A stretch of 64,000 nucleotides of DNA from Armatimonadota bacterium (lineage in GTDB: Bacteria; Armatimonadota; Fimbriimonadia; Fimbriimonadales; Fimbriimonadaceae), in the NCBI GenBank assembly GCA_025360125.1, contig JANYCU010000024.1, forward strand, positions 1 through 64,000, in the 5' to 3' direction. Below, piece after piece: positions 43,438 through 61,683 of this stretch (within the stretch, counting starts at the first letter, position 1; every line of letters starts with the position of its first letter). Below the pieces are notes generated by a model. That model did not search any database, was not told the origin of the DNA, and saw nothing but the letters and a program-made list of their open reading frames with translations. A program made the translations under genes and the position numbers.

Positions 43438-44313
43438 TTAGAATGAAAGGTCGTTCAGCGTGCCGTCAAGTGTCCAAAGATACTTAGTGACATCGGTGAT
43501 GACTGCACCTTCGGCTCCATTGGTGTAGGTTGCTGTCTGGTAGTCAGTACCAGCCGCGAGCAAACCGTCGTTCAAGAACTTGGTGTGACCATCGGTGAAA
43601 GTAACAACGGCGCCGTTGTATGGCTTAATTGCTCGGGTGCTTGCCGTGATCTTTCCGACTGCTACCGGGTTGTTGCCCGACCAGTTACCGGAACCTGGGG
43701 TCCCATCGTATCGGATGCATGCAAGAGGAGCTGGCAATGTGATTGGCCATGCTCCAGGAGGATTAGCTTGATAGTAGCCAATCGTTGGATTGATTCGGAA
43801 TTGTTGCGAACTCGTGAACATGACGGTCTCAGCTGGTTTGACTCCGGCAGTTGACGATCGTGCCAAGGCGCTTACGCAGTTGTACCAAGGTGAGAGGAAC
43901 ATGTAGTTGTATCCGTACTGAGAAAGTCTCTCTTGATTGTATTGGGTTGCATTTGGACTTGCAGACGTGTAAACGCCGTCCTTGTCGCCAACGCCTGGAT
44001 CAACCAGCATCTGTACGTTCTTCATGTATGGCTGCTGTAGAACAACCCATGTAACCGCGGTGCCAGCTTGCAACTGTACTCGAAGGCTGGTTCCCAAACT
44101 GTCATCACCGTTTGATTCGAGAACGAAGTAGTCGTCGTTGTCGCCAGCGTACATGATTTCAGCCAGGCCCAATTGTTTGTTGTTGCTGATTGAAGAAGCT
44201 TTCTTTGCGGCAAGCTTGGCTTGAGCAAAGACAGGGAAGAGGATTGCTGCTAGAATTGCAATGATTGCTATGACAACCAGCAACTCAATAAGAGTAAAAG
44301 CACGATTTCGCAT
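43438..44313 (-). CDS. Type II secretion/type IV prepilin-like protein (DUF1559-type)
   Basis: 291 residues from ATG 44313. A short basic leader MRNRA is followed by the methylated pseudopilin helix [15 protein letters not shown] with Glu at +5, then a soluble domain with [19 protein letters not shown] and a C-terminal [13 protein letters not shown], the H-x9-DG-like signature. The cleavage position is Ala rather than the usual Gly. It is cut by prepilin peptidase and assembled into a pseudopilus or pilus. No assembly genes are adjacent. It is the canonical member to compare with the array at 57.9-61.6 kb. Confidence 0.9.
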
Positions 44314-44449
44314 GATATAGAATCTCCCACTCCTCAGTAGTCTGAGAAATGTTAAGACCATTATAAGAAATGTATTAGAGAAAACCCAAGGACTTTTTGA
44401 AAGAAAGTGAAAAAAAACTGACCTTTTGCAAAATCAATGACAAAAATCG

Positions 44450-55485: not shown

Positions 55486-57414
55486 TTACTCCAAACCTGC
55501 AGCCTCAGTCGCCGCCTCGTCATGCGGAATGAACATCAGCGTCAACAAGCCCGGAATCGCAAAGAGCAGAGCTGCGAAGAACGTTGTCGTATAGTTGTTT
55601 TTCGACACGCTTAGTATCTGGCCACCGACAATCCCCGCTATCGCAATGAATGTCGCGCCCAAGCCAGTCCCGATCGCGAAGTGCGCTGTTCGGTGGTTAC
55701 CTCGCTGCGCAACCCGCATCAAGTACACGCCATAGCCCGCGTAACCCAATCCGTAGCCAAACTGGTCCATAAAGTCGATGAACCCAATTCCATAGAGATT
55801 CGACGGCTGAGCCATTGAGGCATACAAGTACAACAAAATCGGCAGGTGCATCAGCACCGCTATAATCCAAAAACCGCGCTTCAACCCGAGTTTGCCCGCC
55901 ACAATCCCACCAACAATTCCGCCGCAGATCATCCCCGCCACGCCAATCGTCCCCTTCACCAAACCGAATTGGCTGTTGCTGAGCGCAAGGCCACCTTTCG
56001 TCAAGTCATCCTTTAAAAAGAACACTGAAATCTTATTAACCATCGCTTCGCTAAAGCGATAGAACGTCAAAAAGCACAAGATCGGGAAGATTCCCGATTG
56101 GCGGACAAAGGTCGAAAATGCCTCTCCCATCTCGGTGCCTTTCAAAGACTTTCGCAGGAAGACGACGAGCGCAATCGCAATCGGAGCGCAAACCGCTAGC
56201 TGAAGAACCTCACTGACGACACCCGAAAATCCGACCGATTGTCCCAGAATGAGTGCCGTTTCAGGCAATTTCCAGCCCGAAAATCTTCCTGAAACCATAT
56301 TTGCCGCCAACTTCCAAACCGCACTGACCGAAAAATATGCCGCCGCATAAAACGCCAAAATCGCAAAAGTCCGGTTCAAATTGCCCCGAAATTGTCCGCG
56401 TTGGGCTTCGCTGGGTTCGACGTCGAGTGGCGCTTCAGGAACCAGTTTCCGAGCGGGAACCATCAGCATTCCGTACAAAAGGGCAATGCACATCAGCGAG
56501 ACGAACCAGGCAAAAGGAGCCGGAACCCACCGATTACCTTGGCCGCCCGAAAACGTATCGCGGGCGTCGGCCGTCGGAAAGCCAGTGATTCGCGCCGAGT
56601 TTTCCTCTGGCTTTTCCGAAAGCACTTTGCCCATTTGGTACAACGCCAAAGGCACACGGGCCTTCCCAAATTCCAGCGCGCCGTTTTGAATGTTAAACGA
56701 ATTCTCCGTTCCCGGAATCGCGACGGGAGACCCCTTTTGGTCGACCAGTTTTTGACCTTGATCTGTGATCAATTCGCCCTTGTCCAGGTGAAAAGTAGCG
56801 GACTTGATGTACTCCAAGTTCTTTTCTGAAGGGCCTTTCACCGCCAAATACAAGTTGCCACCAGTCTGGACATTTACCGGGTTGAACCGCATAAAGTAGC
56901 CAACCAAAAACGGAACCAGCGCCATGCAAATGAGCTTTCCCGCTCGGTACGAAGCCGATTGGACCCCGGCAAACGTCGCTTGCGTCTCTTTAGATATCGC
57001 CAGCATGTAAAAGCCGTCGGTAGCGATATTCGTCATCGCCGAGACAAACGCACTACCGCCTAAGAAGATCAGCGAAGCCACAAACGCAGTCGATCCTGGT
57101 AGCAAGAAGAACGGAGCAATCGCCAAACAAATGGTCAATATCGCCTGCCCCATCAATACCCATTTGCGCTTCTTCGCGCTCAAATCAACCAATGGTCCGA
57201 GCAAAAACTGAAGCGACCAAGGCAAGGCAATAATCGACGTCCACGTCGCAATCAGCTCATTGGGAATCCCGAGGTCCTTATAGAAAACTGCCGACAAATC
57301 GGAAATGATCGTGACCGGAATCGCCTGAAGCACGTACAGCAACGGCACAAATTTCCAAGGATTCGGAACAGGCGGTCCCGCCTGGGGTTGCAATGCTTCA
57401 GTATCAACGGACAT
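55486..57414 (-). CDS. PAT/AmpG-like major facilitator transporter with large insert
   Basis: 642 residues with about 12-14 transmembrane helices. The first half carries the AmpG/PAT pattern LLYVLQAIPVTII and AVFYKDLGIPNELIATWTSI, then AMTNIATDGFYMLAI followed by FAGVQSASYRAGKLI. A soluble insert (~190-305) lies after helix six, containing DKGELITDQGQKLVDQKG and ending GQGNRWVPAPFAW; it probably faces the periplasm. AmpG imports muropeptides for wall recycling; other PAT members carry acetyl-CoA. Substrate here is uncertain because of the insert. Usual AmpG is ~490 residues, so the insert is notable. Confidence 0.85.
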   Translation of the reverse strand: MSVDTEALQPQAGPPVPNPWKFVPLLYVLQAIPVTIISDLSAVFYKDLGIPNELIATWTSIIALPWSLQFLLGPLVDLSAKKRKWVLMGQAILTICLAIAPFFLLPGSTAFVASLIFLGGSAFVSAMTNIATDGFYMLAISKETQATFAGVQSASYRAGKLICMALVPFLVGYFMRFNPVNVQTGGNLYLAVKGPSEKNLEYIKSATFHLDKGELITDQGQKLVDQKGSPVAIPGTENSFNIQNGALEFGKARVPLALYQMGKVLSEKPEENSARITGFPTADARDTFSGGQGNRWVPAPFAWFVSLMCIALLYGMLMVPARKLVPEAPLDVEPSEAQRGQFRGNLNRTFAILAFYAAAYFSVSAVWKLAANMVSGRFSGWKLPETALILGQSVGFSGVVSEVLQLAVCAPIAIALVVFLRKSLKGTEMGEAFSTFVRQSGIFPILCFLTFYRFSEAMVNKISVFFLKDDLTKGGLALSNSQFGLVKGTIGVAGMICGGIVGGIVAGKLGLKRGFWIIAVLMHLPILLYLYASMAQPSNLYGIGFIDFMDQFGYGLGYAGYGVYLMRVAQRGNHRTAHFAIGTGLGATFIAIAGIVGGQILSVSKNNYTTTFFAALLFAIPGLLTLMFIPHDEAATEAAGLE

Positions 57415-57812: not shown

Positions 57813-57893
57813 CTTGACAATATTGGCGTGGCAAATGACACGTGCCCCCCCATCGTCAATAATAATCCTTCCAAACAACCGGAGTCCGATACT

Positions 57894-58481
57894 TCACGTG
57901 CCCAACAAATAGCCAATCATGATCCCTTTCCCATGAAAACTGTATGGTCCGTCTGCACCCAATAATAGGGGATCCCTCATGTAAGGTACAGATTCCGGAG
58001 ACTCAATCTGCGAAACGTTAAGAACTCGCTTTCCCGCCGAATATCCCGGAATGACGCGTTGCAAAGAATAACTATGAACGTGCGACATCGCACCCGGCAA
58101 TGCTTTTCTCGGTGAATTTAGATCGGAAATCGGTGGCCAAACTGAAGGGTCTGAAGGGTCTGAAGGGCAAAGATAAACATACTCGCTGGCATTTTTCATG
58201 ATCGGTTTAAGAGCATTACGAAACTTGGTCGCCGACTGCGTGCCTTCAAAGGTGTAATAAGGCGAAAACGCATCGTTATTGTCTGATGCATATATTTGAC
58301 AACCGATAATGACCTGCTTCACGCCGCTCATACAAGAGCTTCGCTTAGCATCGTCCTTACCGCTATATCCTAATGGCCAAATGAATGTGCTCAAGCAGCA
58401 AAGCGGAAACAAAACCCCAATCCCAAGAAAGGACTTCGCTAGGCATCCAAGCTTCTTCTTCTCAACTGGTTGCATGTTCAC
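57894..58481 (-). CDS. Pseudopilin-derived membrane protein 6 of 6
   Basis: 195 residues from GTG 58481 (ATG 58475 also possible), overlapping the previous stop. The N-terminal helix is GCLAKSFLGIGVLFPLCCLS without a prepilin cleavage site. The soluble domain has the array signature MSGVKQVIIGCQIYASDNND, then FSPYYTFEG, and ends YMRDPLLLGADGPYSFHGKG. A tandem 9-base repeat in the coding sequence (58143-58169) gives PSDPSDPS. It lacks the final YLDGH block. It is the most divergent of the array. Confidence 0.8.
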   Translation of the reverse strand: MNMQPVEKKKLGCLAKSFLGIGVLFPLCCLSTFIWPLGYSGKDDAKRSSCMSGVKQVIIGCQIYASDNNDAFSPYYTFEGTQSATKFRNALKPIMKNASEYVYLCPSDPSDPSVWPPISDLNSPRKALPGAMSHVHSYSLQRVIPGYSAGKRVLNVSQIESPESVPYMRDPLLLGADGPYSFHGKGIMIGYLLGT

Positions 58482-59155
58482 AGGTCCCGATTAACCTCAA
58501 GTTTTACTGATTTGACGTGAGAGTCTATGAACCCCTCGGCAAAGGAAGGCCCGTGCGACGACAAAAACCGTTGAGTCTCTTTGGCATCGTAGCCCCGAAT
58601 TACATCCCGTAAGTAAGGAGTCTTGGATGGGTCAAGGACTTCTGCTTCTTTAAAAACCCGCTTCCCCGCCGAAAACTCAGGGATCTCTCCCATCAACGAA
58701 AGACAATGAGCGTAATCCATCTTCCCCGGCAGACCTTCATTCGATGGTGCTGATGGCCTTTGCGCTTGGATATTTTCCTTTTCTAGTGGGCAATTGTACA
58801 TTTCATCATTCTTAATGTATGGATGGTTGGCAGCCATAAACGCCTTTGTCTTGTCTGTACCATCGAACGAAAAATAAGGCGGAAGGCAATCATCAGAATC
58901 GGCTTCATAAATCGATATCGACGTCATGACCTGCTTTAGATTCGATAAACAGATTGTCCCTGGTGAGCCAGTGTAACGTGCCTGCAAGAAAGGCCAAAGA
59001 ACAAGCACGAGGACCCCGAGAACGATCAGCCCCAAAAGCCATAACCACGCTACTGGCTTGATTGGCTTCATCGGCCTGGCATACTCCTTGGGAAATTCGC
59101 TCACTTTGAACTCATTGTGTGTTCCTTGAAGTGGCTCATAGCTCCGAAAACTCAT
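58478..59155 (-). CDS. Pseudopilin-derived membrane protein 5 of 6
   Basis: 225 residues from ATG 59155 (20 bases inside the upstream gene). A 28-residue soluble N terminus precedes the helix VAWLWLLGLIVLGVLVLVLW. The soluble domain has CLSNLKQVMTSISIYEADSD, YFSFDGTDKTKAFMAANH, DYAHCLSLMGEIPEFSAGKR and YLRDVIRGYDAKETQRF. The end is SHGPSFAEGFIDSHVKSV, the H-G-x3-G-x-ID-x-H block. No prepilin signal, unlike the gene at 43438. Coupled to the next gene. Confidence 0.82.
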   Translation of the reverse strand: MSFRSYEPLQGTHNEFKVSEFPKEYARPMKPIKPVAWLWLLGLIVLGVLVLVLWPFLQARYTGSPGTICLSNLKQVMTSISIYEADSDDCLPPYFSFDGTDKTKAFMAANHPYIKNDEMYNCPLEKENIQAQRPSAPSNEGLPGKMDYAHCLSLMGEIPEFSAGKRVFKEAEVLDPSKTPYLRDVIRGYDAKETQRFLSSHGPSFAEGFIDSHVKSVKLEVNRDL

Positions 59156-59771
59156 TAATCGGCGCACTAAACTTCGCGTGGCCATCAAGGTATCCCACAT
59201 TGAATCCGTTCGGATGGGGCGACAGAAAGCCTTGTTGCTTCATTTTTTGCGTTCCAACCGTGATCGTTCCGTAGCCACGGATCGGGTCGCGAAGGTATGT
59301 CACCTTTGCCGGATCCTCAACCCCCTTCGTTTCCAGCAAGCGGCTGCCGTTCGCGAAATCAGGAATGACTCCGCGCAGCGACAAGCAGTGAACGTAGTCC
59401 ATGACCCCTGGAAGTCCCTCTTGACCCGGCGTCGAGCCATCCTTTTTGACATTGGACTGCTCCTGATGACAAAGCAACTCCTGCTTGTTCATGATGTAAT
59501 TCGACATCACTTCGATGAACTTCCCTTGGCTTTCCGCTCCGTCAAACGAATAATAGTGCGGGAGGGCTCCGTTGTTATCGGATTCATAAATTGCTGTAGC
59601 CGTAGAAAGCTGCTTGACGTTCGACAGACACGCAGAACGCAATGATCCTCGATTGCCAGTCGTCACCGGCAACAAAATCGCCGCAAGTACCCCGAGAATG
59701 AGCAGTGCGAAGATTGACTCCGTTATTCGGACTCGAATCGGAACATCCCCTCGCGGATAAAACAGTCTCAT
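59136..59771 (-). CDS. Pseudopilin-derived membrane protein 4 of 6
   Basis: 211 residues from ATG 59771. Helix ITESIFALLILGVLAAILLP keeps the pattern of a prepilin helix (E at start, ending AAILLPV) but has no G/A-FTLIE cleavage motif. The domain is CLSNVKQLSTATAIYESDNN, HYYSFDGAESQGKFIEVMSN, DYVHCLSLRGVIPDFANGSR, YLRDPIRGYGTITVG and SPHPNGFNVGYLDGHAKFSA. The final H-P-x-G-x3-GYLDGH block is complete. Confidence 0.85.
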   Translation of the reverse strand: MRLFYPRGDVPIRVRITESIFALLILGVLAAILLPVTTGNRGSLRSACLSNVKQLSTATAIYESDNNGALPHYYSFDGAESQGKFIEVMSNYIMNKQELLCHQEQSNVKKDGSTPGQEGLPGVMDYVHCLSLRGVIPDFANGSRLLETKGVEDPAKVTYLRDPIRGYGTITVGTQKMKQQGFLSPHPNGFNVGYLDGHAKFSAPINEFSEL

Positions 59772-59795
59772 AGCTATAAGCTCATTATAGGGGAA

Positions 59796-60434
59796 TTACA
59801 AATCCGCCGCGTACTTCTCTTTCTTTTGCCCAGCGTGGCCATCCAGAAAGCCGAACGTGAAATCAGACGATGTGCCGTGTGCTGAGTGCGGAACACCATT
59901 TTCAGTTGAGCGAATGGGATCCCGAAGGTAGGCAGTTGTCTCCGGGTTCGCCACCGCTGTGACATTAAGAATTCGCTTACCGATGTCATAGTCAGGAATG
60001 ATCCGTTTCAGCGAATTGCAATGAACGTACGACATCTTCCCCGGAATCGCCAGTTCGCCCGCAACCGGGTTGCCTTCTCGGAAACTATGCCGATCGTAAG
60101 GACAAACAAACAAGTAATCCGATCCGCTTTGCCCATTTTTGTGAAGGCTAGGCCCTGTTGAAGCGACAAACCAACTAGCCTCGGATTGTCCGTCAAATGT
60201 GAAATGAGGCGGCAAGCAGTCATCATTGTCGTTGGCATACAAAATAGCTGCTGTCGTTATTTGTTTGACATTCGAGAGACATTCGGACTTTCTCATCGCA
60301 CGATTTTCATTGATACCTGGAACGATGACGATAAGAAAGAAGCCACCGAGAACTCCCAGAATGAGGATGAGCAAGATGATTTCAAAAACCATCTGAAACC
60401 GATTCTTCTTCGCCTGATCGCTAAAAATTCTCAT
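59796..60434 (-). CDS. Pseudopilin-derived membrane protein 3 of 6
   Basis: 212 residues from ATG 60434; longer frames upstream are not supported. Helix MVFEIILLILILGVLGGFFL. The domain has CLSNVKQITTAAILYANDND, HFTFDGQSEASWFVASTG, a C-x2-Y-D-R insert (YLFVCPYDRHSFREG), SYVHCNSLKRIIPDYDIGKR, YLRDPIRSTENGVPHSAHG and FTFGFLDGHAG. The cleavage signal is missing. Confidence 0.85.
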   Translation of the reverse strand: MRIFSDQAKKNRFQMVFEIILLILILGVLGGFFLIVIVPGINENRAMRKSECLSNVKQITTAAILYANDNDDCLPPHFTFDGQSEASWFVASTGPSLHKNGQSGSDYLFVCPYDRHSFREGNPVAGELAIPGKMSYVHCNSLKRIIPDYDIGKRILNVTAVANPETTAYLRDPIRSTENGVPHSAHGTSSDFTFGFLDGHAGQKKEKYAADL

Positions 60435-60438
60435 TTGT

Positions 60439-61029
60439 TCACAACTCCTTGTTGAAGTCAAGATGTTTGATAACCTTGGCGTGGGTGTCCAAGTACTCGA
60501 CTCTAAACCCATCCTCATGCGGCGAGTGGAGCCCGTCGTCTCGCCGCTCAACCGACGTCCTGATCGGGTCTCGCAGGAACGGAACAACTCCCAAATCTAC
60601 AACGTCTTTCTCAGAATTGAGAAGCCGCTTGCCGTCGCTAAAATTAGGAATCACACCCTTCAATGACAAACAGTGAACGTACGACATCTTTACCCCAACA
60701 CCTTCTTGGTCGGACGGCAAATGAGATTGATCCTGAGGACATTTGAACATTTGTTCATTCTTGCTGTATAGATTCAACGCATCAAAGAATTTCCCAGTAC
60801 TCTCCGGTCCATCAAACGTGTAATAGGGTGGCAAAACGTCGTCAAAATCTGATTGATAGATAGCCAGGGCTGTTCCCAGTTGCTTAACGTTAGAAAGGCA
60901 TTGGTAAGGATGGGAATATGGCTTCTCGGGAGCAAAGACCGGAAAAAGTATTGCAGCTACCACGAAAATAAAGACCATCCAAAGGATGAGTTTCAACCAT
61001 TGGCTCATTTTTGGTTCGGCTCGGTTCAT
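60439..61029 (-). CDS. Pseudopilin-derived membrane protein 2 of 6
   Basis: 196 residues from ATG 61029. Helix LKLILWMVFIFVVAAILFPV; the end [13 protein letters not shown] closely matches the prepilin at 43438 ([12 protein letters not shown]). The domain is CLSNVKQLGTALAIYQSDFD, YYTFDGPESTGKFFDALN, SYVHCLSLKGVIPNFSDGKR, FLRDPIRTSVERRDD, SPHEDGFRVEYLDTHAKV. YLDTH replaces YLDGH. Six bases separate it from the upstream gene. Confidence 0.85.
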   Translation of the reverse strand: MNRAEPKMSQWLKLILWMVFIFVVAAILFPVFAPEKPYSHPYQCLSNVKQLGTALAIYQSDFDDVLPPYYTFDGPESTGKFFDALNLYSKNEQMFKCPQDQSHLPSDQEGVGVKMSYVHCLSLKGVIPNFSDGKRLLNSEKDVVDLGVVPFLRDPIRTSVERRDDGLHSPHEDGFRVEYLDTHAKVIKHLDFNKEL

Positions 61030-61034
61030 GGTTG

Positions 61035-61643
61035 CTAAAGCTCCGTGTTGATATCGATTTGAAATCGAGCCCGAACATGACAATCAAGATAGGCAACGTT
61101 AACGCCTGCATGTGGACCAATAAAGCCGACTGTGTTCGTTTCCCTATTAGGTCCGTAACCCCGAATCGGATCCCGCATGTACGGGATTTTCGAATTGGCT
61201 GGATCGTCGTCCCTAACCTTCAAGACTCGTTCACCTTTACTGAAATTGGGAATGAGGCCCTTCAGAGCAAGGCAATGAACATAGGACATCTTCTTATCTA
61301 GCCCTTCTGACCAATCCTGAGTCGAACCTTGGTCTTTCGAGCACCGATAGATTGTTGGGTCTTTCGCGTAATTGGCCGTCACAGCCATAAACTGCGTCGC
61401 CTTTTCATGGCCATCAAACGTGAAATACGGAGGAACCTTCTCTTCATTGTCCGCTTCATAAATCGCCACCGAAGTCGAAAGCTGCTTCAAGTGACTAAGG
61501 CAAGAATTATGGTTGCCAGTGTGGCCCCCAGCCAAGATTGGAAACAAAATTGCCGCTACAACGGCGACAACCAGCAAACCCGCCATCAGCTCTGCAGCCA
61601 AGCGTTTTGGATTTCCCCTTGCCTTCTCGCTAAACAACCTCAT
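61035..61643 (-). CDS. Pseudopilin-derived membrane protein 1 of 6
   Basis: 202 residues from ATG 61643, first gene of the array. A basic leader (EKARGNPKR) precedes LAAELMAGLLVVAVVAAILF, which keeps Glu and the AAILFP ending of a prepilin but not the FTLIE cleavage motif. The domain is CLSHLKQLSTSVAIYEADNE, YFTFDGHEKATQFMAVTA, SYVHCLALKGLIPNFSKGER, YMRDPIRGYGPNRETN, GPHAGVNVAYLDCHVRARF. It is transcribed away from the divergent epimerase gene. Confidence 0.85.
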   Translation of the reverse strand: MRLFSEKARGNPKRLAAELMAGLLVVAVVAAILFPILAGGHTGNHNSCLSHLKQLSTSVAIYEADNEEKVPPYFTFDGHEKATQFMAVTANYAKDPTIYRCSKDQGSTQDWSEGLDKKMSYVHCLALKGLIPNFSKGERVLKVRDDDPANSKIPYMRDPIRGYGPNRETNTVGFIGPHAGVNVAYLDCHVRARFQIDINTEL

Positions 61644-61683
61644 GCGCTAATCCCATTATACGAAACCCTTCCATAATGAACAT

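Follow-up and report, generated by a model that had tools for sequence, protein, structure and literature searches.

Six tandem genes in the window (the whole stretch of 64,000 nucleotides that was analysed) encode proteins that we read as uncleaved DUF1559 domains tethered to the membrane with their N termini in and their C termini out, and as descendants of prepilins of the DUF1559/H-X9-DG type (probability about 0.68). The homology of domain and helix to prepilins, the absence of a cut site, the conservation of the locus in three species and purifying selection on related genes were all read directly from sequence.

Organization of the array

Six related open reading frames were present at the place stated in the preliminary description, positions 57894-61643. 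They lie on the minus strand, their products have 193 to 212 amino acids, and their order of transcription is g1, g2, g3, g4, g5, g6. The array, its flanks and the gene used for comparison are as follows.

61035..61643, minus strand: g1, 202 aa; pilin-like anchor (AAILFP, Glu5 in register, Lys at −1) and DUF1559-type domain
60439..61029, minus strand: g2, 196 aa; anchor with AAILFPVF, Lys at position 5 and Met at −1; DUF1559-type domain
59796..60434, minus strand: g3, 212 aa; anchor with Glu5 in register and Phe at −1; DUF1559-type domain
59136..59771, minus strand: g4, 211 aa; anchor with Glu5 in register and Arg at −1; H-X9-DG end above the TIGR04294 cut-off
58478..59104, minus strand: g5, 208 aa; plain anchor with Lys at −1 and without Glu5; DUF1559-type domain; start taken as GTG (alternatives, ATG at 59155 or 59071)
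57894..58475, minus strand: g6, 193 aa; the most diverged copy, its C-terminal DGH tail lost by a frameshift
59772..59795, minus strand: gap upstream of g4 that may contain an internal promoter (TATAAT, 12 nt ahead of the start)
61644..61683, between divergent genes: intergenic region of 40 bp with minus-strand TTTCGTATAATG; presumed array promoter
55486-57414, minus strand: MFS-transporter-like gene flanking the array (named from reading of the sequence)
From 61684, divergent to the array: nucleotide-sugar-epimerase-like gene (named in the same way)
From 62655, divergent to the array: UbiX-like gene (named in the same way)
43438..44316, minus strand: canonical DUF1559-type prepilin (RAFTLIE) of the same window, the comparison gene; start set at the M adjoining the signal

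Pairwise identity among the six array proteins was 31 to 47%, and 22 alignment columns were invariant, including Cys48, Lys53, Gln54, Tyr62, Asp65, Cys101, Arg157-Asp158 and His178 (g1 numbering). The shared motifs were largely those described earlier, with exceptions in g1, g3, g5 and g6. CLSN-x-KQ was changed to CLSHLKQ in g1 and CMSGVKQ in g6, the D-x-VHCLSL core to YAHCLSL in g5, VHCNSL in g3 and VHSYSL in g6, and YLRDPIRG to YLRDVIRG in g5 and YMRDPLLL in g6. The SPH...GYLDGH end of the array proteins is the H-X9-DG motif. It is missing from g6 because the reading frame shifts near the C terminus (window positions 57850-57945), where the other frame continues GHVKYRTPVVWKDYY, resembling the HARYRTPID tail of a homologue. 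This frameshift, which went unmentioned in the preliminary description, may be real decay or an assembly error; reading frames were intact in the other five genes.

With the starts chosen, the intergenic gaps from g1 to g6 were 5, 4, 24, 31 and 2 nt. Judged from the gap sizes and from TATAAT before g4, g1-g2-g3 and g5-g6 are probably coupled, and g4 may have its own promoter. TTTCGTATAATG was also found at the head of the array in two relatives, G002 and G009; the call of an array promoter at 61644..61683 is one of consensus resemblance and conservation only. At both g1 and g4, TATAAT ends just 11 to 12 nt ahead of the start codon, a proximity that suggests leaderless transcripts. One or two short operons would yield several diverged versions of the DUF1559 domain at the same time.

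Homology of the globular domain

The proposed descent from DUF1559-type prepilins was supported by a profile that was limited to the globular part, because circularity was to be avoided. Its source was prepilins with a signal from distantly related members of the phylum, belonging to other orders. All six array proteins were found by this profile, at E values of 2e-13 to 5e-24. When more prepilins were included in the profile, the six were found at E values of 2e-16 to 1e-24, and reversed sequences reached only 0.24. Matches to the Pfam family DUF1559 (PF07596) were sub-threshold for g2, g3 and g4 (E, 0.0004-0.001; 19.5-20.8 bits), and none of the six reached the curated cut-off of 23.3 bits (13.2 bits for g6); the canonical prepilin of the window was also under this cut-off (14.7 bits). 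Of the six, g4 alone passed the TIGR04294 cut-off of 19 bits, scoring 24.9 bits. At E values up to 0.01, PF07596 matched 9 and TIGR04294 matched 3 of 13 array proteins. No convincing match was obtained in a PHROGs search, and no confirmed relatives were found in the genome_contigs scan. An AlphaFold2 model of g1 made from the six-sequence alignment only was of low confidence (mean pLDDT, 42).

The N-terminal helix and the lost cleavage site

A helix-only profile, built from 46 canonical prepilins and confined to residues −1 to +34, ranked two copies from the relatives (G002_1, 4.8e-6; G009_2, 2.9e-5) and g2 (2.2e-4), g1 (0.0017) and g4 (0.0086) above all open reading frames outside the superfamily, in a set of about 1300. 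A chance hydrophobic helix is ruled out by this profile for the family as a whole. Of the remaining copies, g3, g5 and g6 were not found by it; their helices are too diverged to be recognised by this test on its own, and it is the rest of the protein that supports their descent. The AAILFP ending of the helix was kept in several array copies, as had been noted. The best PDB match of the family profile was the pseudopilin PulG (5wda; E, 0.00088), with profile positions 16-67 aligned on residues 3-55, so that Glu18 of g4 falls on Glu5; the other top PDB matches were mostly type IV pilins.

Loss of the cleavage site, also claimed previously, was evident from residue −1, which is K, M, F, R and K in g1 to g5, respectively; g6 cannot be placed safely in the pilin register. 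Position −1 was A or G in all prepilins examined in the same genome. Neither N_methyl (PF07963) nor TIGR02532 matched any of the six array proteins, and the genome as a whole gave 41 N_methyl matches over the cut-off. Glu5 was kept in g1, g3 and g4; g2, g5 and several relatives lack it. In three relatives, sister genes read KFTLMQ, RFTLFH and RFTLTQ, in contrast to A/G-FTLIE in prepilins, and would be the clearest sign of a former site eroding. Since Glu5 is in register in g1, g3 and g4 and these K/R-FTL sisters exist, the site appears to have eroded and the helix not to have been replaced. In another genus of the family, genes of G154 (L088 4760-5476) and G155 (L089 3735-5522) carry a degenerate A-ATVKE motif, which keeps Ala at −1 and Glu5 and has no Phe1; it may represent an intermediate that is still cleaved.

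Once the prepilin-peptidase site had eroded, the former signal helix would serve as a permanent anchor. Preceded by K/R-rich residues, it would insert with the N terminus in and the C terminus out and would stay in the membrane, and the DUF1559 domain would be displayed outside the cytoplasmic membrane, tethered and non-polymerising. A hydrophobic stretch of at least 20 residues followed a K/R-rich start in nearly all signal-less proteins examined. The earlier suggestion that the array encodes fixed membrane proteins is likely, supported by the absent cut-site motif and the retained helix, from which sequence features we infer non-cleavage of the array proteins; their topology, their absence from filaments and their molecular task are likewise deduced. 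Selection would maintain the domain for its part in an extracytoplasmic task, either binding or structural. Because the domain persists on anchors that are not expected to polymerise, it probably binds something outside the membrane.

The main rival to membrane tethering is release: the former pilin helix would act as an ordinary Sec signal peptide, and signal peptidase I would cut it and free the domain into the envelope or the medium. The genome does contain DUF1559-type proteins with Sec-type signal peptides, and permissible sites follow the helix in some copies (ILA|GG in g1, LQA|RY in g5 and VFA|QD in G002_1). However, no signal-peptidase-I site is common to the copies, none was found in g2, G002_2, G002_4 or G009_2, and the uncharged stretch is mostly 20 to 25 residues, which is long for a cleaved signal. 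We regard release as unlikely.

A somewhat smaller chance is given to a role in the pilus, in which the six proteins would still be processed by prepilin peptidase, or would enter the pilus uncleaved, as minor subunits, stoppers or assembly regulators. Glu5 in register in g1, g3 and g4, the AAILFP ending and the position of signal-less genes directly downstream of a canonical prepilin in three relatives (see below) would fit such a role, but g2, g5 and several relatives have lost Glu5, and the residues at −1 differ from the A or G of the genome's own prepilins. Prepilin peptidases of the A24 class are known to need Gly or Ala at −1. The genome yielded a single A24 peptidase, clustered with prepilins and with PilC-, PilT- and PilB-like genes, so that a pilus or pseudopilus apparatus is present, which is in keeping with the main reading; this enzyme may be unusually tolerant of K, M, F or R at −1.

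Evolutionary history of the array

The array recurred at the same locus, with the same neighbour genes, in two relatives of the genus, G002 (four copies) and G009 (three copies), which argues against a chance arrangement. Another species of the genus, G007, has its own tandem array (L169 1232-4949), which consists of four short signal-less DUF1559-type membrane proteins. Three more relatives of the genus, G001, G015 and G018, carry signal-less genes at other loci; in each of them a canonical prepilin has a signal-less gene as its immediate downstream neighbour, and in G015 and G001 a second one comes next.

A tree built from 75 proteins united 24 signal-less ones in a single group (support, 93/80; recovered in 92% of bootstrap trees). 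Copies of the window array were interleaved with copies from G002 and G009. The trees lack a root and include some long branches. When more distant signal-less genes were added, the best tree did not contain a single group, and a single group was not rejected (p-AU, 0.352), a result compatible with loss of the prepilin signal either once or several times. Elsewhere in the phylum, almost every full-length relative examined had the canonical motif, which, together with the eroded intermediates, argues for a change from signal-bearing to signal-less proteins. The preliminary description had the pilins converted and then amplified. Recent simple amplification is rejected, because the copies, at 31 to 47% identity, are about as diverged from one another as from those of two other species and interleave with the latter in the tree.

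For orthologous signal-less genes of G001, G015 and G018, dN/dS was 0.06 to 0.33 where computable, and these related genes are under purifying selection. Within the array dN/dS is uninformative because synonymous sites are saturated. That the array is a decaying remnant without present function, as the frameshift in g6 and a copy number varying from 3 to 6 across species might indicate, is very improbable given five intact frames of six, core residues that are invariant despite the low pairwise identity, a locus and promoter-like box conserved in three species and the selection on related signal-less genes.

Signal-less DUF1559 genes across the genome

A domain-only profile identified 40 DUF1559-type genes in the genome (distinct open reading frames counted; weakest E, 0.001-0.006). 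On inspection of the N termini, a prepilin signal was present in 23 and absent from 17. The signal-less genes, classified by eye, comprised 11 with plain membrane anchors (the array six and five others), 5 with Sec-type signal peptides and 1 with a lipobox. Eleven of the 17 thus lie outside the array, and the preliminary description had not mentioned them. The array in the window is the largest example of a repeated uncoupling of the DUF1559 domain from the pilus.

Several of the other signal-less genes also lie side by side. Contig C23 (L075 1825-3987) carries a second tandem set, whose three signal-less membrane proteins are distantly related and show TLK/TLT remnants where the helix starts; it holds two of the five plain anchors outside the array. 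Two tandem DUF1559-type cores follow Sec-type signal peptides on contig C19 (L072 2742-4347), and contig C22 (L070 3082-6985) carries three tandem Sec-type genes whose cores come after a long unrelated N-terminal part. A core behind a lipobox (VGC) on contig C33 (L071 2451-3462) adjoins one with a plain anchor.

Among the families of unknown function in Planctomycetes, DUF1559 ranks as one of the largest, and Planctopirus limnophila has 68 paralogues, two of them essential (PMC10632474). The family is also very numerous in the present genus, with 118 matched stretches in the relative G007. Re-use of the same outer domain on several other anchors in one genome suggests that the domain has a job of its own, and natural versions presumably unfit for pilus entry suggest that it is kept without polymerisation. 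We tentatively suggest, as a possibility that we rate below even odds, that DUF1559 acts in this lineage as a free-standing module outside the cytoplasm, which has been transferred again and again from prepilin signals to uncleaved anchors, Sec signal peptides and a lipobox. If so, the large expansions of DUF1559 "pilins" would serve a common binding task, and filament formation would be one mode of it. With the signal-less versions, the question of what DUF1559 binds can be put to a direct test, and they form a graded series that runs from the canonical motif through K/R-FTL to full loss.

Comparison with known systems

The signal-less sets in G002, G009, G001, G015, G018 and G007 resemble the window array in combining a plain anchor with a DUF1559 core, often in tandem, and differ from it in copy number and neighbourhood; that of G007 is shorter and falls mostly outside the window-array group in the tree. 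No precedent for uncleaved pilins was found in the open-access literature, of which coverage was incomplete and which yielded general DUF1559 papers only. The array proteins share with the major pseudopilin of type II secretion, PulG/GspG, an alignable helix and domain start with Glu5 in register. Unlike PulG/GspG, they are not cleavable by motif, no C-terminal half of the GspG type was found in them, and no secretion-system genes adjoin the array. Compared with DUF1559 prepilins, they are shorter (193 to 212 aa), lack the G/A-FTLIE cut site and have an LRDPIRG motif that is specific to the array group. They share with the DUF1559/SBP_bac_10 (PF07596) prepilins the CLSN-x-KQ...Y-x-x-D-x-D-D start of the domain, PY-x-KN, F-x-C and the H-X9-DG end, and, as in PF07596/TIGR04294 prepilins, the domain is preceded by a pilin-like helix. 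The array would represent descent from a known family in which the way of anchoring has changed.
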